From: Deltaproteobacteria bacterium
Lineage (GTDB): Bacteria; Bdellovibrionota; JACOXK01; 2-02-FULL-40-11
DNA length: 48,541 nucleotides
Assembly (NCBI GenBank): GCA_016198185.1
Contig: JACQJD010000084.1
Span: 1-48,541, forward strand
Direction: 5' to 3'
Within the stretch, counting starts at the first letter, position 1; each line of letters starts with the position of its first letter. The translations under genes and the position numbers were made by a program. Positions 12,837 through 48,496 of this stretch are shown here, piece after piece. The notes under the pieces were generated by a model, which was given only the letters and a program-made list of their open reading frames with translations, did no database searches and was not told the DNA's origin.

Positions 12837-13688
12837 ATGAAAAAAAAGCAGACAATTTTTATGCTGGGTTTTTTAAGTGGGTATTTTATCATTTGCTCTG
12901 GGTGGGCGTTTCAAGGGGTTCGAGGGATTGCCCTTTCCAATGCTATTCGGGGAGCTGTTGGACTCAATGAAGCTTTGTATGTCAATCCTGCCGGGTTTGC
13001 TTTTTCAGGGCGGTATTCCGTTGAAGGGCAGTCCTTTTATTTGCCGTCGCAGCAAGGGCCAGCTTTTTGGGTTTTGAATGGTTCTGTTGTAGATGCGCAC
13101 TTAAGGGGGCTTCAAGCGGGACTGGGATTTTCACGAAAAATTCAAGTTGGAAGAGACCAATTTGAAAACGCGTATTATTTGGCACTTTCTACTATTTTTA
13201 AAGATATTGTTTCCGTGGGAATGACGGGCAAATATTTTCATCAAGATTTAGAAAATGCTGAAAATCAGATGCTCAATTTAGATATAGGTACGTTTTGGGT
13301 ATTGACATCTCAGCTTCAGATGGGAATGGTGGGACATAACGTATTAGGTCCCAAGACGCATTTGGGTGAAACTTTAAAAAGGGAGCTCGGAATTGGATTT
13401 CGAGGGAAGTTGTGGGATTTTTTAATGGGCTCTGTGGATATTTCTAAAAATTTAGATCGATCTTGGAAAGAAGATATTGCCGTGCATGGGGGGTTAGAAT
13501 TTGTAAGGCAAACGGGGATTTTAACCCAAATGGGGCTCTCTCTCTCCGATCAAAAAGATCAAAATAGGTATAGTTTTGGACTGGGGTGGGCGCAGCATAA
13601 ATTTGGTGTTTTTTACGCATTTCAAAACTCGATGGATTCTTTGCGTCGCATGACGCAGGCATTGAGTCTTCGCATTTTTTTTCAGTAG
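12837..13688 (+). CDS. Outer-membrane beta-barrel protein, PorV/PorQ-FadL-like
   Basis: 283 residues with an N-terminal signal peptide ending near GWA. The mature start (GVRGIALSNAIRG...LYVNPAGFAF) matches the opening of PorV/PorQ and FadL-like barrels, where a 'G.R..alg.A......a.y.NPAG' pattern is typical. The rest alternates hydrophobic and polar residues in short strands with Gly and aromatic girdles and ends in LRIFFQ, compatible with a beta-barrel. Its ligand is unknown. It is divergent from the dksA-led array and has no strong ribosome binding site. Confidence 0.6.
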   Translation: MKKKQTIFMLGFLSGYFIICSGWAFQGVRGIALSNAIRGAVGLNEALYVNPAGFAFSGRYSVEGQSFYLPSQQGPAFWVLNGSVVDAHLRGLQAGLGFSRKIQVGRDQFENAYYLALSTIFKDIVSVGMTGKYFHQDLENAENQMLNLDIGTFWVLTSQLQMGMVGHNVLGPKTHLGETLKRELGIGFRGKLWDFLMGSVDISKNLDRSWKEDIAVHGGLEFVRQTGILTQMGLSLSDQKDQNRYSFGLGWAQHKFGVFYAFQNSMDSLRRMTQALSLRIFFQ

Positions 13689-13762
13689 ATAGCTTTTTTG
13701 AGAAAGATTCGAGCCTTCAAGGTACCCACGCTTTTTGCCGAAAAGGGGTATAAGGGGGGCAT

Positions 13763-14092
13763 ATGGCTATTAAAAAGAATAAAAAAAGGGGTTGTGAGCA
13801 GTCTGGTTGCAAAGAAGAAGTTTCAATGGAAGGGTATTGCCGTTTACATTATATTGCGCAGTGGCAGACGCATAAAAATGAGGCAAAACAAAAAAATGAG
13901 AAAATTTTGAATCAGTATGTGCGTGTGCTGACCAAAAAATATCCTGATTCTTATCTAGAAGTGTTGCGCAGTGATCTTCAAGATGCCAAAAAATTTGAAA
14001 AAACAGTGGCGGATTTGAATTTAGGAGATCTAGAGGATGACAATGTGTTGGATGATCTCGAAAAAATCGTCAAAAAACTAAGTAAAGACTGA
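13763..14092 (+). CDS. Small Cys/His cluster protein, unknown function
   Basis: 109 residues, no signal peptide. After a basic N terminus (MAIKKNKKRG) comes a likely metal site: CEQSGC, then GYCRLHY, giving a C-x4-C-x9-C-x2-H pattern around residues 11-30. The remainder is a charged helical region ending in a Leu/Asp-rich helix. The start is supported by a purine-rich GGGGGG tract 4 nt upstream. I do not recognise the family; a nucleic-acid or protein-binding zinc knuckle is a reasonable guess. Confidence 0.65.
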   Translation: MAIKKNKKRGCEQSGCKEEVSMEGYCRLHYIAQWQTHKNEAKQKNEKILNQYVRVLTKKYPDSYLEVLRSDLQDAKKFEKTVADLNLGDLEDDNVLDDLEKIVKKLSKD

Positions 14093-14215
14093 AATTTGGA
14101 AGCCCTTCTGAAGTATATACAGGAATCAATAACAGCGCTTTCCAATCCACAGTCCATTAAACTGCGATAAATTCCAAATTGGTGATTAAGTGAATACAGG
14201 ATGAAGTAGCTTTTC

Positions 14216-14256
14216 GTCATCCTGAATCCAGCGAAGCTGGATGAAGGATCTCGTCG
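14216..14256 (+). repeat. Palindromic dispersed repeat, GTCATCCTGA...GGATCTCGTCG type
   Basis: Begins GTCATCCTGA and ends AAGGATCTCGTCG. The centre is a perfect hairpin, ATCCAGC-GAA-GCTGGAT (14226-14242). It shares the outer GTCATCC and GGATCTC ends with the other dispersed repeats in the window. Confidence 0.7.
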
Positions 14257-14300
14257 AATTATTGCCAGTCTTTGGTTTTGCCCAAGTTAAGATGGTATCA

Positions 14301-14383
14301 CCCAATGTCATCCCCCGGCTTGACCGGGGGATCTCGTTGTTGAAGTTAAAGATCCCCCGGTCAAGCCGGGGGATGACATTGGG
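14301..14383. repeat. Perfect 33-bp inverted pair of the GTCATCCCCC repeat
   Basis: Left arm 14301-14333 (CCCAATGTCATCCCCCGG...) and right arm 14351-14383 are exact reverse complements, with a 17-bp spacer. Each arm is itself a nearly symmetrical GTCATCCCCCGGCTTGACC/GGGGGATC unit, so one arm alone can also fold. The first 27 bp of the right arm recur exactly at 17929-17955. Confidence 0.9.
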
Positions 14384-14569
14384 TGGGAAAGTGCACATAA
14401 CAGCAAATCGATGAAATACTTATAAAGTTCTGCTCATTTTGAGTTGGTTTGGAATCAATACTTTCTAAATTTTTTTAAATTAATAGCATCACAGAATCAG
14501 AGTGTTGACCAAATGTCACTTGTATAGCTTAACAGTCTGCTAGTGTTTTTTTCGGGCATTAAAAATGTT

Positions 14570-14830
14570 TTATGAATAAGCCTTATCTCGCGGTGATACC
14601 TTTACAACCGTAATCTGTTTCTGAATAGAATCTTGGTGAAGAAGTACTCGATATTTACCAATTCGGTATCGATAAATTCCCTTCATTCCTTTTAAAGCCT
14701 TAATCCCATTCATATTAAATATTCCTTTTTCAGAGAGCACCTTACAAAAGTCATAAATTCGTTGTTGAATGTCTTGAGATAATTTCTGGAGCTCCTTTGC
14801 CGCAGATTCTTTGAATTTAATTGTAAACAT
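14570..14830 (-). CDS. RelE/ParE-family toxin
   Basis: 86 residues, typical RelE/ParE size. It reads like the family: KFKESAAKELQKL at the N terminus, a short helix, GIKALKGMKGIYRYRIGKYR (the conserved L.G...YR.RvG.YRv pattern, with basic residues used for RNA or gyrase binding), then hydrophobic strands ending VVKVSPRDKAYS. It directly follows its antitoxin with no gap, so it is co-expressed and neutralised by it. RelE-type mRNA interferase or ParE-type gyrase poison cannot be separated here. Confidence 0.85.
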   Translation of the reverse strand: MFTIKFKESAAKELQKLSQDIQQRIYDFCKVLSEKGIFNMNGIKALKGMKGIYRYRIGKYRVLLHQDSIQKQITVVKVSPRDKAYS

Positions 14831-15082
14831 TTAATGTTTAATTTTAATCTTTCTGAAAACTTCTTCAAGGTTAATAGAAGGCTCATTCATTCTTTCAACA
14901 AGTGCTTGCATTGCCCATTGAATATCATCATAATCCTCCATTGCAGCCAAGATTGATGTCTCAACAAATTTCCCGATTTGAATATTATGCTCTTCACAGA
15001 ATTGAGCTAATAAGCTTCGTATATCACAAGAAACTTTAACGGTTAAAACTTCTTTGGGATTTCTCTTTAAGACCTTTGGCAT
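14831..15082 (-). CDS. Antitoxin of the RelE/ParE pair (ribbon-helix-helix-like)
   Basis: 83 residues. The N-terminal part (VLTVKVSCDIRSLLAQFCEEHNI) fits a DNA-binding beta-strand plus helices of ribbon-helix-helix proteins; the acidic C-terminal helix would wrap the toxin. Start ATG is supported by AAGGAGG 5 nt upstream. It precedes the toxin, which is the standard order, and the promoter region upstream contains an inverted repeat that is the obvious autoregulatory operator. Confidence 0.75.
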   Translation of the reverse strand: MPKVLKRNPKEVLTVKVSCDIRSLLAQFCEEHNIQIGKFVETSILAAMEDYDDIQWAMQALVERMNEPSINLEEVFRKIKIKH

Positions 15083-15094
15083 ACATCCTCCTTG

Positions 15095-15135
15095 ATAGTT
15101 GTATTATATTACTATTAGTTGTAAAATACAACTAT
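15095..15135 (-). promoter_or_regulatory. Promoter and operator of the toxin-antitoxin pair
   Basis: An 11-bp perfect inverted repeat, ATAGTTGTATT (15095-15105) and AATACAACTAT (15125-15135), encloses a third half-site TAGTTGTA at 15116. On the minus strand TTGTAT (15126-15131) and TATAAT (15103-15108) are exactly 17 bp apart, so the palindrome covers both promoter boxes. This is the arrangement expected for repression by the antitoxin complex. Confidence 0.7.
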
Positions 15136-15162
15136 AATCTTTCTAGTGTCCTGAGTATAAGT

Positions 15163-16467
15163 TTAATCTTGGACAATGATGCCGTCTTTTTCAAATTGTT
15201 GAATTTGTTCTTCCAGTGTATCCAATTCGTCTCTAATGATAGAACGTTCTGAAAATGGATCCCATAAAAAGAACGTCAACCCTCGTGGAACATGGCGAAC
15301 CACTTCAATGCCCAATGTTTCGTACCAGGGTTCATTAACAAATTTTCTTACTTCATCTTCAGCTAGTGATTGAAAAAGTCTTGAAAAATCAATAGCCACG
15401 TCTTTATAAAGGCGTGTACGGAGGTCAATTTGAATCAGTCTTCCAAGCTTACCGAGTGCAAATAGCTGATTGTGTAATGCTTCAAAAGAGGGTTCAGATA
15501 TCTGGGTTGAAATCCTGCCATGCACACGACCATCTTGTAAGAAACGCTGATAGAAGTCCCAAAAAATGTCTTCTACCTCTCCAATAAATTTATATTTCTC
15601 GAACAATTCAAGCCGGTTAGCTGCAAGAACGACCTCGACAAATTGATCAGAGGGTGAGTCCTGTGTCTTGTGTCGATTTTGTATGCTCTCAACGATTTTT
15701 GCATGTGACTGTCCGGGGTACAGGTTGATGACATTCTTCTGGAATTCTGTTTTGGCTTGTTTAAGTTCATTGTTTTTTTTTACGATTTCCAAAATAATGT
15801 CATCTAAGAATTCGTCAGAATCAAGACACGTGCCTGGGGTTGGATTCGTGAGCATGATTGTGGCGGTGATTTTTTCTAATTTTTCATTACTTTTCAACAT
15901 GCCATAACAGTTTTGAATATGTCTGAGGCTTTCATGGATGAGAATGCCGGCACGTGTGTTATCTCCCAATGTGTTCCAAGTTGGTGCCGAAATCCAAGCA
16001 CCCAGGTCCAATAAATATATAACGGCAGGACGAAGGACATGGTTGGGAAAGATATTCTCTAACCGAGGCTCTTGATTTTGATTCTCAGAATATCGAAATT
16101 CGAAGGGTGTATACAACCATCTTACATTTTTAAGTGCTTCCAAAATATAATTTACAATTACGGGAGAATTGGTTTTCCACAGCTCTAATCTTTGCTCAGC
16201 CTGTTTGAAAGCGGATGTGGTATAAACAGGAAACACATCATAGCCCACACGTTCTGAAAATTCGGAGATATGGATATCATCTTCAGGCGTTCTGCGATCA
16301 TTGGGGAGCTCGGTTTGAATATGTGTAAAATCATACAAAATGGGCTGTGCTGTATCGGTGGCTTGAAACAGAGTTCCACCAGCGCTGCTGTTTCCACCGG
16401 CCTGAGCGGATAAGGACCACAAAAACAAGCAGGTATTTAAAAAGAAAGCCATTTTTTGAATCTTCAT
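15163..16467 (-). CDS. Secreted protein of unknown function
   Basis: About 434 residues from the ATG at 16467, chosen over an upstream in-frame start because GGAGG lies 9 nt before it and the signal peptide (MKIQKMAFFLNTCLFLWSL, cleavage near AQA) then starts at residue 1. The mature N terminus is Gly-rich (GGNSSAGG). A histidine-containing segment GILIHESLRHIQNC lies mid-protein; it resembles HExxH but has one extra residue, so it is not a standard zincin site. The C-terminal half is predicted helical and charged. It is divergent from a TIGR02147 regulator, the pattern seen in Bdellovibrio-like genomes. Function unknown. Confidence 0.6.
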   Translation of the reverse strand: MKIQKMAFFLNTCLFLWSLSAQAGGNSSAGGTLFQATDTAQPILYDFTHIQTELPNDRRTPEDDIHISEFSERVGYDVFPVYTTSAFKQAEQRLELWKTNSPVIVNYILEALKNVRWLYTPFEFRYSENQNQEPRLENIFPNHVLRPAVIYLLDLGAWISAPTWNTLGDNTRAGILIHESLRHIQNCYGMLKSNEKLEKITATIMLTNPTPGTCLDSDEFLDDIILEIVKKNNELKQAKTEFQKNVINLYPGQSHAKIVESIQNRHKTQDSPSDQFVEVVLAANRLELFEKYKFIGEVEDIFWDFYQRFLQDGRVHGRISTQISEPSFEALHNQLFALGKLGRLIQIDLRTRLYKDVAIDFSRLFQSLAEDEVRKFVNEPWYETLGIEVVRHVPRGLTFFLWDPFSERSIIRDELDTLEEQIQQFEKDGIIVQD

Positions 16468-16593
16468 GTTATGTACCTCCAGGGTTTTATAATGGGTCGA
16501 TATATAGCGCAATTTTCAGAAAAAGAAATATAAACTTAATTAATAATAAATTTATAATTTGACTTTTAGTTAATTTATATTACAAGCACAGAA
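16468..16593. other. AT-rich divergent intergenic region
   Basis: 126 bp between the secreted-protein gene and the TIGR02147 gene. It is strongly AT-rich with overlapping TTAATTAAT and AAATTTATAATTT tracts; TATAAT at 16550-16555 (approximate) could serve the plus-strand gene. No confident -35 box is visible. It must hold both promoters. Confidence 0.4.
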
Positions 16594-17412
16594 ATGCATG
16601 TTTCGATACTCAATTATAAAGACTATCGCGAATTCCTGAGAACATGGATTGAAACATATCCCGCCGGAAGGAAGGGGCTTAAAAAGGCTTTGGCATTGGC
16701 TTGTGCGTGTCAGCCAGCATACCTTACACGAATTTTAAAAAAAGATGCGCATTTAAGTTTAGAACAGGCATACGCGTGTGGACCCTTCTTAAAGTTGTCT
16801 TCTGACGAGGTGGACTTTTTTATTTTGCTCATTCAATTCGATCGGGCAGCAACAGCACCCCTCAAGCGGTTTTTTTTAGAAAAGATGAATCGCATGCTTA
16901 CGGACCAACTGACGCTGGAAAAGAAGCTTCAATCAAAAAAACATATCCGCCTGTCAGAACAAGAACAGTATTATCGTTCGTGGTATGTGGCGGTTATCCA
17001 CGTCATGGTGACCATCCCGCAATTTCGAACGGCGGACGCCCTTGCACATTATTTAAATTTACCTTTGCGTGAAATTCAATCTGTCTTGGATTTTCTTCAA
17101 TCCTGTCGATTGATTGAAAAAAAGGACCATCAGTATCTTCCCAAAAAAGTAAGGCTGCATTTGGGAAGTTCTTCACCTCTGATTCAGAGAAATCATATGA
17201 ACTGGAGAATTAAAACTCTGGAAGCTTTACAAAACTTGAGGGCATCAGAAGATAAAACACTCCATTATTCATCTGTGTTTACAGCAAGCGAACAGGATCT
17301 CTTGAATTTGAAACAAATGATCGTGGATTTGCTGCAGCGTACGGAAAAAACCATTGATGTCTCACCCGCTCATCTGGTGCACTGTCTTCACATTGATTTT
17401 TTTCCGATTTAA
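16594..17412 (+). CDS. TIGR02147-family (DUF4423) putative regulator
   Basis: 272 residues. The N terminus (LNYKDYREFLRTWIE) and the following helix-turn-helix-like stretch (KALALACACQPAYLTRILKK) match the TIGR02147 family, where 'Dyr.fL......k......s.r.la...g..sps.l..il' is conserved. The middle (SEQEQYYRSWYVAVIHVM) and a second winged-helix-like part (ADALAHYLNLPLREIQSVLDF) are also typical. The family is expanded in Bdellovibrio and Fibrobacter; function is presumed transcriptional control. It probably regulates itself and the divergent secreted protein. No ribosome binding site is evident. Confidence 0.75.
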   Translation: MHVSILNYKDYREFLRTWIETYPAGRKGLKKALALACACQPAYLTRILKKDAHLSLEQAYACGPFLKLSSDEVDFFILLIQFDRAATAPLKRFFLEKMNRMLTDQLTLEKKLQSKKHIRLSEQEQYYRSWYVAVIHVMVTIPQFRTADALAHYLNLPLREIQSVLDFLQSCRLIEKKDHQYLPKKVRLHLGSSSPLIQRNHMNWRIKTLEALQNLRASEDKTLHYSSVFTASEQDLLNLKQMIVDLLQRTEKTIDVSPAHLVHCLHIDFFPI

Positions 17413-17452
17413 GTGTGAATCTCACACCCATTTGTCCTCCAGTAACAGTAAG

Positions 17453-17471
17453 GGTCAAGCCGGGGTATGAC
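17453..17471 (-). repeat. Degenerate fragment of the GTCATCCCCC repeat
   Basis: GGTCAAGCCGGGGTATGAC differs from the right half of the intact repeat by loss of GG and a substitution. It sits just 3' of the TIGR02147 gene. Confidence 0.5.
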
Positions 17472-17556
17472 AAAAAAAGACGTTTTCGGACACAGCCTGC
17501 CAAGGATTCTCAGTTAGGGTGAAGTCGTTTCAAGTCATCTTGTTGAAGCGCAGTAA

Positions 17557-17606
17557 GTCATCCCCCGACCCCCGATTTCTCGAGGACATGCTTGATCGGG
17601 GGATCT
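17557..17606 (+). repeat. Palindromic repeat flanking the GIY-YIG ORF, downstream copy
   Basis: Starts GTCATCCCCCGACCCCCGAT and ends TTGATCGGGGGATCTT, with CCCCCGA/TCGGGGG arms. It is oriented opposite to the copy at 17929-17955, so the two bracket the GIY-YIG gene as inverted repeats. Confidence 0.75.
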
Positions 17607-17613
17607 TAAGCTT

Positions 17614-17907
17614 TTACAGCAGTGATTGGTATAGATCATTCCAGTGAGGATTGTGTTTTTCAATGAGTTCAACTTTCCAATTCCGATCCCACTTTTTAAG
17701 TTTTTTTTCTCTATGGATTGCATTTTCAGGATCATCAAATATTTCATAATGAACAAGTTTATCTAGCTGATACTTCTGGGTAAATCCATCTACGAATTTA
17801 TGCTTGTGTTCATAAATTCTCTTGATGAGGTTTGATGTTGTTCCTACATATAAAGTTCCGTCCTTCTTATTTGTCAGAATGTAGGTGTAATACTGTTTCG
17901 CTGACAT
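17614..17907 (-). CDS. GIY-YIG nuclease-family small protein
   Basis: 97 residues. It is a stand-alone GIY-YIG domain: YYTYILTNKKDGTLYVGTT supplies the 'GIY' (here TYI) and 'YIG' (YVG) strands, followed by the conserved Arg and Glu-His helix (LIKRIYEHKHK), LVHYEIFDD, and REKKLKKWDRNWKVELIE. Proteins of this size have catalytic residues compatible with DNA nicking but no target-recognition domain. It lies only 7 bp from one palindromic repeat and 21 bp from an inverted copy on the other side, so it looks like cargo of a small repeat-bounded unit. Confidence 0.85.
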   Translation of the reverse strand: MSAKQYYTYILTNKKDGTLYVGTTSNLIKRIYEHKHKFVDGFTQKYQLDKLVHYEIFDDPENAIHREKKLKKWDRNWKVELIEKHNPHWNDLYQSLL

Positions 17908-17928
17908 ATTTCTTCTTATAATGTTGTA

Positions 17929-17955
17929 GATCCCCCGGTCAAGCCGGGGGATGAC
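17929..17955 (-). repeat. Palindromic repeat flanking the GIY-YIG ORF, upstream copy
   Basis: 27 bp (GATCCCCCGGTCAAGC through GGGGGATGAC) identical to 14351-14377. It lies 21 bp upstream of the GIY-YIG start. Confidence 0.85.
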
Positions 17956-18014
17956 GGTGTGTCGACTTCAGCATGGTAATCAACACATTAGGTCTTGTAA
18001 ACGGAGGGGACCTT

Positions 18015-18064
18015 CCTCGGCCTTTCAGGCCTCGAGGTAAATTTCGCACGAAGTGCGAAATTTA
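18015..18064. repeat. Two adjacent hairpins downstream of the ABC transporter operon
   Basis: The first is imperfect (CCTCGGCCT-TTC-AGGCCTCGAGG). The second is perfect: TAAATTTCGCAC (18038-18049), loop GAA, GTGCGAAATTTA (18053-18064). Neither is followed by a clear T-run on the minus strand. They may act as a terminator or be another palindromic element. Confidence 0.55.
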
Positions 18065-18206
18065 TCCTGAACGCGGCAAATCATTGGCATGAGTGACGTG
18101 TCTACTTCCAGTACCTATGGGCAAGGGCATTTCAAAATCTTTATTGAAGGCTTGGGTGATTTGAACAAGCGTTTTAGGCGAATCATCGGCGCAGTCCACA
18201 ACGTTC

Positions 18207-19013
18207 TCAATGGTTAATTTGTTCAACCTCTTCACGGTGATGGGTAATCCGCGGTTTCCCCGTAAATGGGTTTTGGTCGATAAAGGCGTTAAATCCGTAG
18301 ACATTTTTTAGATGGCCTGTCGTCATCCATTCCGAGATGGGGCCTTGGCCATAAATTTTCTCGCTTTTTAAAAAAATAAGTTCTTCACTGAATTCGCAAG
18401 CCAGGTCCAGTTGATGAAGCACCATCAAAACGGTCATTTTTTTTTGCTTCTGAATACTTCTTAACAACGATAAAATTTCAAATTGAGCTTGAATATCAAG
18501 GTGAGCAGTCGGCTCATCTAAGAGCAACAAAGGCGTTTCTTGGCACAAAGCTTTTGCCAGTAAGACTTTTTGTTTCTCCCCATGAGAAAGTGTATCCAGC
18601 AAGCGGTCCTTTAAATGCAGTGCTTGAACCATCGATAGGGTGGCTTCCCCTATTTCGTGATCTTCTGTTGATTCCAATCCGAGTCCTTGTAAATGGGGTG
18701 CACGACCCAAAAGGACATAATCAAAAACAGACATACTGAAAGCAAACTCCATAGATTGTGGGACAAAAGCAATTTTTTGTGCGCACTGTTTTAAGGCAAG
18801 GGTGTGTAACGGAGTTCCCTTCCAAACAATATCCCCTTGTTTGGGTTTTAAGAACTGTGTGATGAGATTTAAAATGGTGGATTTTCCGGAACCATTGGCA
18901 CCCAAGAGCGTTGTAAATGATCCCTCTTGGACAAAAAAAGAAAGTTCTTTGAAACAGAATGAAGGGTCCCCGCTGTATTTAAAATGCACATTTCTAAATT
19001 CAAGAAGCTTCAT
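18207..19013 (-). CDS. ABC transporter ATP-binding protein (BtuD/FecE type)
   Basis: About 268 residues from the ATG at 19013, which overlaps the permease stop as ATGA and has AAGG about 8 nt upstream; a TTG six codons earlier is less likely. Walker A LLGANGSGKSTILN, signature LSHGEKQKVLLAKAL, and Walker B LLLLDEPTAHLD are intact. It has the FecE/BtuD pattern, supplying energy for import of cobalamin, haem or ferric siderophore. It forms an operon with the permease and binding-protein genes. Confidence 0.93.
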   Translation of the reverse strand: MKLLEFRNVHFKYSGDPSFCFKELSFFVQEGSFTTLLGANGSGKSTILNLITQFLKPKQGDIVWKGTPLHTLALKQCAQKIAFVPQSMEFAFSMSVFDYVLLGRAPHLQGLGLESTEDHEIGEATLSMVQALHLKDRLLDTLSHGEKQKVLLAKALCQETPLLLLDEPTAHLDIQAQFEILSLLRSIQKQKKMTVLMVLHQLDLACEFSEELIFLKSEKIYGQGPISEWMTTGHLKNVYGFNAFIDQNPFTGKPRITHHREEVEQINH

Positions 19014-19978
19014 GGGGACGACCTTTTCCAAAGGAGAAACAGAAAAAAAGGAGCCCCGAGAAGCGCCGTCATGGCACCCAAAGGCATTTCATAGGGAAAA
19101 AGGGTTCGCACGACCATGTCCATGGAAATGAGAAGGATGGCCCCAACTAAAAAACAATGAATGAGAATCCGGCGTGGATCATTGCCCCATAGAAATCGGC
19201 AAAGATGAGGCACCAAAAGACCAACAAAACCAATCATTCCCGTCAAAGAAACGGTCAGTGCACAGAGCAACGAAGCTAATATAAAAAACAATCGTTGGGT
19301 TTTAAGTGCATCGATGCCCAAGGCCTGTGTTTCAATGGCGGATAAATTTAAAAGATGCAGATGATAACTTTTTCTATAAATGAAACTTAACAAAAAGAAT
19401 AATATGCCAAGCGAAATCCAAAGCATGGGCGTTGGAATGGGAAAAGAAAGGCCCCCCATAAGCCAAAATAACAAAGAGGTGCCTTCAAAAGGTTCTGAAA
19501 AAGATAAACACAACGTGACCAGCGAAGAAAATAAAAAGCTTAAAAATACACCCGTGAGAAGCAATACATGTGAAGTTGTCGAAACATGCTTTCGTGAGAC
19601 AAAATCAATAACCCCAAGGCACAGCAGTGAGGTCAGAAACGAGACGAACGTAATCAGCGGATAACCGAGATGCAGTAGAAACCCAAGTGCTCCGCCTAAG
19701 CAAGCCGCTCCGGAAACGCCCAAAATAAAAGGATCTGCCAATGGATTTTTAAGGATGATTTGAAAAATATAACCACTGACAGATAAGGCCCCTCCGGCAA
19801 TGATCGCCAAAAGCACTCTTGGCCAACGAATATCCCAGATAATGTTTTTGAAAAGAGGATCCCAAAAATGAACTGGAGAAATCCACTCCACGCCGATCGA
19901 AAGGCCAGTGAAGAGCGTTAAGAGAAACAAAAACCCAAGGCTTGAAATTTCGGCGATCCATTTTGAAGTGCGAATCAT
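19010..19978 (-). CDS. FecCD/BtuC-family ABC transporter permease
   Basis: 322 residues with about ten membrane segments. Family landmarks: DIRWPRVLLAIIAGGALSVS near residues 48-67, ILKNPLADPFILGVSGAACLG, and TGMIGFVGLLVPHLCRFLWG before the cytoplasmic coupling helix with DPRRIL. It forms the inner-membrane channel of a cobalamin/siderophore importer. It overlaps neighbours by 4 bp on both sides (ATGA), the mark of coupled translation. Confidence 0.93.
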   Translation of the reverse strand: MIRTSKWIAEISSLGFLFLLTLFTGLSIGVEWISPVHFWDPLFKNIIWDIRWPRVLLAIIAGGALSVSGYIFQIILKNPLADPFILGVSGAACLGGALGFLLHLGYPLITFVSFLTSLLCLGVIDFVSRKHVSTTSHVLLLTGVFLSFLFSSLVTLCLSFSEPFEGTSLLFWLMGGLSFPIPTPMLWISLGILFFLLSFIYRKSYHLHLLNLSAIETQALGIDALKTQRLFFILASLLCALTVSLTGMIGFVGLLVPHLCRFLWGNDPRRILIHCFLVGAILLISMDMVVRTLFPYEMPLGAMTALLGAPFFLFLLWKRSSP

Positions 19979-26835: not shown

Positions 26836-26926
26836 CAGGCTGTCCTAAAATGCCGTCATCCTGACCCTGAGCGAAGCGAAGGGGAAGGATCTCACCGTCG
26901 AAGACAAGACTTTTTGAACAGCCTGT
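26835..26926. repeat. Dispersed repeat unit with terminal inverted repeats
   Basis: Ends ACAGGCTGT (26835-26843) and ACAGCCTGT (26918-26926) are perfect inverted repeats. Inside is GTCATCCTGACCCTGAGCGA...GGATCTCACC. Positions 26838-26901 recur at 48433-48496 with about three mismatches. It overlaps the last base of the lspA stop codon. Confidence 0.85.
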
Positions 26927-48432: not shown

Positions 48433-48496
48433 GGCTGTCCGAAAATGCCGTCATCCTGACCCTGAGCGAAGCGAAGGGGAAGGATCTCACCCTCGG
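48433..48496 (+). repeat. Second copy of the 26838-26901 dispersed repeat
   Basis: GGCTGTCCGAAAATGCCGTC onward, including GTCATCCTGACCCTGAGCGA and GGATCTCACCCTCGGAG, matches 26838-26901 with about three differences. It begins 4 bp after a stop codon, as does the other copy. The rest of the window edge (48497-48541) continues as GC-rich hairpin-like sequence. Confidence 0.85.

Follow-up and report, generated by a model that had tools for sequence, protein, structure and literature searches.

A small gene for a GIY-YIG nuclease lies between inverted copies of a short palindrome in the window, as the whole stretch of 48,541 nucleotides analyzed here (contig JACQJD010000084.1 of a Deltaproteobacteria bacterium) is termed, and the same two repeats stand about 3 kb away with only a short spacer between them. 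The locus raises the question of whether one unit is present here in a full and an empty form, and whether the nuclease might promote movement or spread of the repeat, as an earlier note on this DNA had inferred.

The gene (17614–17907, minus strand) encodes a protein of 97 aa, in which GIY-YIG is the only domain matched (PF01541, E=7e-16), and belongs to a repeat-associated group designated clade A. The tyrosines of the GIY and YIG motifs and the active-site Arg and Glu are all present, as membership of the GIY-YIG superfamily demands; in a cross-phylum alignment of 34 GIY-YIG sequences, the invariant positions are Y9, Y20, G22, R30, H34, and E67. The nearest solved structures are those of UPF0213 proteins (PDB 1ZG2 and 1YWL; E=3e-6) and UvrC. 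On its right, the gene is bounded by an intact CGTC-type repetitive extragenic palindrome, or REP (17929–17955, minus strand), which has the exact 27-bp core and forms a hairpin as single-stranded DNA (z=-4.1). The REP on its left (17557–17605, plus strand) is degenerate, its palindrome being interrupted by a 22-bp insertion, CCCCCGATTTCTCGAGGACATG, the start of which duplicates CCCCCGA. Both tags point away from the gene, so that the inverted bracketing described in the earlier note holds in orientation, with the qualification that only one of the two copies is intact. No transposase was seen with the CGTC REPs here. Just outside the unit are a partial REP, GGTCAAGCCGGGGTATGACA (17453–17472, minus strand), which is a remnant adjoining it, and a double-hairpin element (17997–18070, minus strand) that is 97% identical to the element flanking clade-B GIY-YIG genes of the same genome (C49 and C72; L093 and L094). 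This 74-nt double-hairpin family flanks clade-B genes on both sides in several genomes, and the copy in the window adjoins a clade-A unit.

Judged by their sequence, the window repeats are CGTC-tagged REPs, and they meet the definition of that superfamily: a CGTC or TGTC tag, a stem of 8–9 bp starting AT, a loop of 4–5 nt, and a short tail (PMC3733652). The REP at 14306–14335 and its mirrored copies read TGTC-ATCCCCCGG-CTTGA-CCGGGGGAT-CT, with TGTC/CGTC as the tag, ATCCCCCGG/CCGGGGGAT as the stem, and CTTGA as the loop. Known CGTC families, including Neisseria dRS3 and Rickettsia RPE-4 and RPE-6, share with the window repeats the CGTC/TGTC tag, the stem of 8–9 bp starting AT, the 5-nt loop, and the arrangement in HH dimers. 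Such dimers, with the tags outside, predominate among CGTC REPs (PMC3733652). The window pair is likewise HH, and among all adjacent REP pairs at the 80 loci described below, HH pairs (79) are more frequent than TT (60) or HT (48) pairs, an excess weaker than that in Di Nocera et al. 2013 (PMC3733652). The describers of the superfamily noted in 2013 that it "apparently lack[s] a dedicated transposase" (Di Nocera et al. 2013, PMC3733652) and that its families might be heading for extinction (PMC3733652).

The gene-less pair is an HH dimer made up of a left REP (14307–14333, plus strand) and a right REP (14351–14377, minus strand) that are, as originally described, 17 bp apart, the right one sharing 27 identical bp with 17929–17955. 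Its perfect inverted repeat spans 36 nt per arm (14299–14334 and 14350–14385), extending about 8 nt past the REP as CACCCAAT/ATTGGGTG, and folding of the pair as single-stranded DNA gives z=-15. A search of the genome for the 27-bp core found exactly four copies, three in the window and one on another contig (C45:1230), and a wider family, GTCATCCN{6,36}GGATC, has 69 copies in the genome versus 0 for a reversed control. The outer flank of the pair's left REP (14284–14306, plus strand) is common to the C45 copy, the sole other exact copy in the genome; because these two copies share about 23 bp outside the palindrome (AAGTTAAGATGGTATCA[C/T]CCAAT), the dispersed unit must be longer than the palindrome itself. 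Since outer flanks and spacer differ between the pair at 14.3 kb and the unit at 17.6 kb, these two belong to the same repeat family without being demonstrably a single unit in gene-less and gene-containing form. A second, more abundant REP type, GTCATCCTGACCCTGAGCGAAGCGAAGGGGAAGGATC, has about 18 copies in the genome, including those at 26855–26891 and 48450–48486 of the window; this assembly yielded no matching GIY-YIG gene of full length. A truncated GIY-YIG gene on contig C32 of the same genome has a GAAGGATC-type palindrome upstream.

Whether the locus is occupied in relatives can be read from five genomes of the same family (G001–G005). In these, the orthologues of 12837–13688 and of the ABC ATPase gene at 18207–19031 are neighbors, at most about 720 bp apart, with neither the GIY-YIG unit nor the REP pair between them, so that the window carries an insertion of about 4.5 kb (13689–18206) containing the REP pair, a ParE-type toxin–antitoxin pair, and the GIY-YIG unit. 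Conservation of the ORF and its repeats at the same syntenic place in all relatives, which would have refuted the idea of a mobile unit, is thus not what is seen. Because the unit lies within this larger insertion, its own movement there is not isolated. The toxin–antitoxin pair within the insertion (14570–15082) consists of a ParE-type toxin (PF05016) and a DUF6290-like partner.

Dispersal of the unit itself is evident in Thalassotalea sp. ND16A. Seven full units (REP–GIY-YIG–REP), each about 570 bp long, are present in this genome; they are 91%–95% identical, lie in unrelated contexts, and have sharp ends, starting with GTGCCATT and ending near ATCGCTC; several gene-less copies retain both of these ends. 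The dispersed segment extends beyond its REPs, by about 55 bp on the left and 20–40 bp on the right. Sharp shared ends together with non-autonomous deletion derivatives are what characterize insertion sequences and their MITEs, and an enzyme gene flanked by REPs of a family dispersed in the genome is what characterizes a REPtron-type unit; the ND16A units satisfy both descriptions, and the second also applies to the unit in the window. No target-site duplication was visible by eye at the ends of five full copies in ND16A. In the close relative Thalassotalea G203, the site of one ND16A full unit is occupied by a gene-less unit that matches it at the outer ends but has different REPs, while a second ND16A site has no unit and an unrelated segment in its place. 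These comparisons provide no usable clean empty site in Thalassotalea, the flanks being mostly non-coding and the two sites holding the gene-less unit and the unrelated segment, respectively.

Another comparison comes from Azospirillum lipoferum 4B, where the GIY-YIG gene lies between sufB and sufC with an HH dimer of CGTC REPs on either side. The unit is absent between sufB and sufC from 11 of 11 related Azospirillum plasmids, and the four of these plasmids that were aligned have no REPs at this position. Similar comparisons of Sinorhizobium and Rhizobium plasmids were uninformative, since in the former the relatives that share the flanks have the GIY-YIG gene as well, and in the latter the gene-free relatives match only one side of the site. 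With non-syntenic units, coexisting full and gene-less copies, and empty sites in relatives, the idea of a single unit with a full and an empty version is well supported as a matter of anatomy and dispersal.

The main rival to mobility of the whole unit holds that a free-standing homing endonuclease gene cuts REP dimers and is copied into their spacer, the REPs being spread by something else. In its favor, the GIY-YIG fold is classically that of homing endonucleases, the gene is often found exactly at the spacer position of an HH dimer, and one orthologous Thalassotalea site has a gene-less unit in G203 and a gene-containing unit in ND16A. However, a homing gene would be expected to find its REPs already in place, and the aligned A. 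lipoferum relatives have none between sufB and sufC, which implies that REPs and gene share one pattern of presence and absence; this REP-free empty site speaks against homing as the sole mode. The sequences carried outside the REPs of the ND16A unit also amount to more than an insertion into the spacer would include.

The number of REPs per genome bears on homing from both sides, as REPs are far more numerous in carriers of the gene than in non-carriers, yet REP-rich genomes without the gene exist. Within the window's phylum (59 genomes), the nine carriers of clade A or B have 20–584 REPs versus a median near 3 in the other 50, and nine of nine carriers are REP-rich versus two of 50 non-carriers (p=4e-9). 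The two non-carriers with more than 15 REPs both belong to the same genus as a carrier and have incomplete genomes, and in one family (f4), a single genome (G047) is both the sole carrier and the sole REP-rich member. Likewise, among 120 Anaerolineae, the 18 carriers have a median of 79.5 REPs versus 8 in the others (p=6e-6). Twelve Anaerolineae with at least 50 REPs (up to 821) have no clade-A match in their assemblies, and REPs can therefore persist, or even spread, without the gene, unless assembly gaps at repeats conceal it. The link between gene and REP number is strong but not absolute, and on balance homing as the whole explanation appears unlikely.

Association of the gene with REPs extends well beyond these examples. 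Scanning 84,980 species genomes (one per species) for the window's clade of GIY-YIG proteins of about 95 aa gave 523 relatives, of which the best 80, from at least 20 named phyla, were retained; selection was by protein motifs only. REPs were detected as GTCAT followed by 3 nt and, after the loop, by 3 complementary nt and AT, and the contigs carrying the 80 loci supplied 355 other ORFs of 100 aa or more as controls. REPs with outward tags occur on both sides within 200 bp at 39 of the 80 GIY-YIG loci versus one of 355 control ORFs (Fisher p=5.6e-32), and on at least one side within that distance at 65/80 versus 45/355. Within 100 bp of the gene their density is approximately 7 per kb, and past 500 bp it is 0.1–0.3 per kb. 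For 80 of 85 genes, tag words of the family lie no more than 250 bp away, and 17 of 20 named phyla have at least one outward REP near the gene, although counts by phylum and class are not phylogenetically independent. A motif-free measure, the similarity of the 5ʹ flank to the inverted 3ʹ flank, has a median of 15 versus 8.5 in control ORFs (p=5e-26). The simple detector finds no outward REP at about 15 of the 80 loci, some of which hold variants that it misses (L118 and L126).

The GIY-YIG gene is present in the groups from which CGTC REPs were originally reported (Neisseria, A. lipoferum, and Sinorhizobium meliloti). It sits between dRS3/CGTC-1 copies in N. gonorrhoeae, and the adjoining palindromes carry a CGTCAC tag in S. 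meliloti and a CGTCGCC tag in Novosphingobium; GTCAT-type REPs are found on either side of it in Rhizobium CIAT894 and Planktothrix. Existing annotations of clade-A genes, where there are any, read only "GIY-YIG nuclease family protein." Whereas Di Nocera et al. 2013 reported no transposase gene with CGTC REPs, a GIY-YIG clade is associated with them here, which revises that statement. Several individual loci have features of their own. On Planktothrix agardhii plasmid p1 (L266), many GTCATTCTGA repeats lie on either side of the GIY-YIG gene, which is placed between a gene for an MmeI-type enzyme and drmA of a DISARM system. In a Gracilibacteria GIY-YIG gene (L112:4983-5279), the position of the invariant glycine in the GF[TS] motif is occupied by an in-frame TGA, which probably reflects the reading of TGA as glycine (code 25). 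Two PLSDB "plasmids," NZ_CP119140.1 (N. gonorrhoeae, 2.2 Mb) and NZ_AP026896.1 (Aeromonas caviae, 4.9 Mb), are of chromosome size.

The association is also restricted to particular GIY-YIG clades. In the window's phylum, eight of nine clade-A genes are REP-flanked versus none of 13 in the KGAKFFR clade and none of eight UvrC genes. The UPF0213/YhbQ-type proteins resemble clade A in consisting of a single GIY-YIG domain of about 95 aa, but their genes, like those of KGAKFFR type, are not REP-flanked, even in REP-rich Anaerolineae lacking clade A (0/8); REP richness alone thus does not place REPs beside GIY-YIG genes. A search of these Anaerolineae for a divergent REP-flanked GIY-YIG gene found only unflanked YhbQ-type genes and UvrC. 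Clade-B genes of the window's own genome (C49 and C72) have a different palindrome, the 74-nt double hairpin, on both sides. Chance and generic REP richness are ruled out by the control ORFs and by the other GIY-YIG clades in REP-rich genomes. A random placement of repeat pairs relative to GIY-YIG genes, the other outcome that would have refuted a mobile unit, was thus not seen.

Furthermore, repeat type varies with the protein. When mapped on the protein tree, repeat type requires 20 changes versus 33.6 in shuffles, and after removal of proteins at least 70% identical, nearest neighbors share a repeat type in 36 of 56 cases versus 17.6 expected, a level that none of 5000 shuffles reached. Resolution of the tree is poor (96–98 columns), and host relatedness contributes to the match. 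Within a single genome (G010), there are four clade-A genes, with different flanking REP types among them.

These observations tell against a passive association, in which REPs are terminators or recombination sites and an often-transferred gene is caught between them via homologous recombination without any action of the nuclease. CGTC REPs do lie mostly downstream of genes (PMC3733652), where they could serve as recombination homology, and assembly of metagenomes may inflate repeats at contig ends. Against it stand the near absence of REP pairs around control ORFs and other GIY-YIG genes in REP-rich genomes, the fixed outward orientation on both sides, and a repeat type that tracks protein phylogeny across phyla, and the clade specificity in particular makes passive association quite unlikely. 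Least credible is a domesticated function resembling that suggested for domesticated RAYTs, in which the nuclease processes or limits REP hairpins (in cruciform resolution or genome maintenance) and stays next to REPs for the sake of its regulation: the mostly one or few copies per genome, the conserved active site, and structure-selective GIY-YIG relatives such as SLX1 are compatible with it, but the non-syntenic, patchy distribution, the seven full copies in ND16A, and the often truncated or stop-interrupted genes (C32 in the window's genome; G010:C67, G131, and G163) speak against it.

The reading we prefer, with a probability of roughly 0.7, is that the GIY-YIG gene and its two outward CGTC REPs constitute a small autonomous mobile unit, of which gene-less HH pairs are non-autonomous derivatives similar to MITEs or REPINs. 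Anatomy, orientation, clade specificity, protein–repeat co-variation, dispersed full and gene-less copies, and presence or absence in relatives are all matters of observation; cleavage of REPs by the nuclease, and dispersal driven by it, are inferred. In the absence of binding data, the nuclease of about 95 aa is presumed to recognize the tagged hairpin or cruciform of its own REP type. It would then nick at or near the tag, for which there are no cleavage data, and host replication or repair machinery would copy or paste the REP-bounded segment elsewhere. The simplest account, proposed by analogy with TnpA-REP, is that the nuclease nicks the extruded REP hairpin and the host then carries out the copying. 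A broader claim, that this is a new class of mobile element in which a GIY-YIG nuclease of about 95 aa, without a transposase, mobilizes CGTC-REP units as well as REPs and dimers in trans across at least 20 phyla, is one we regard as evenly balanced.

The unit would be a counterpart of the REPtrons, built on an unrelated nuclease. In REPtrons, a RAYT (TnpA-REP, an HUH tyrosine transposase related to IS200/IS605) is associated with GTAG REPs and REPINs, and the two systems have in common a single enzyme gene, flanking tagged palindromes, gene-less HH dimers, a repeat type specific to the enzyme lineage, and copies scattered around the genome. They differ in that the enzyme here is GIY-YIG and not HUH, a part of the REPtron definition that the window protein does not meet, and in that the repeats are CGTC-tagged and had no known enzyme. 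Free-standing GIY-YIG homing endonucleases similarly represent the selfish spread of a nuclease gene, but here there is no intron or intein, and it is the whole REP-bounded unit, not a gene in a fixed target, that is present or absent.

GIY-YIG proteins and CGTC REPs were each already known. No earlier report linking the two was found in the literature, in a search that did not extend to subscription journals and preprints, and priority for the association and its gene-less derivatives is accordingly not certain. Few short repeats in bacteria are as widespread as CGTC REPs, and their enzyme was unknown to those who described them in 2013. The GIY-YIG enzyme is the best candidate yet for the spreader of these repeats, and as a specific, small, and testable nuclease, it turns their spread into a question for the bench. 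If the proposal is correct, it would explain the wide occurrence of genes with no more informative annotation than their nuclease family and would establish a second, independent REP-spreading system beside the RAYTs, one whose enzyme shares its fold with proteins of homing and repair. In its broader form, the proposal would also supply the long-missing enzyme for CGTC REPs, including dRS3, rickettsial RPE-4 and RPE-6, and the REPs of rhizobia, sphingomonads, and others.
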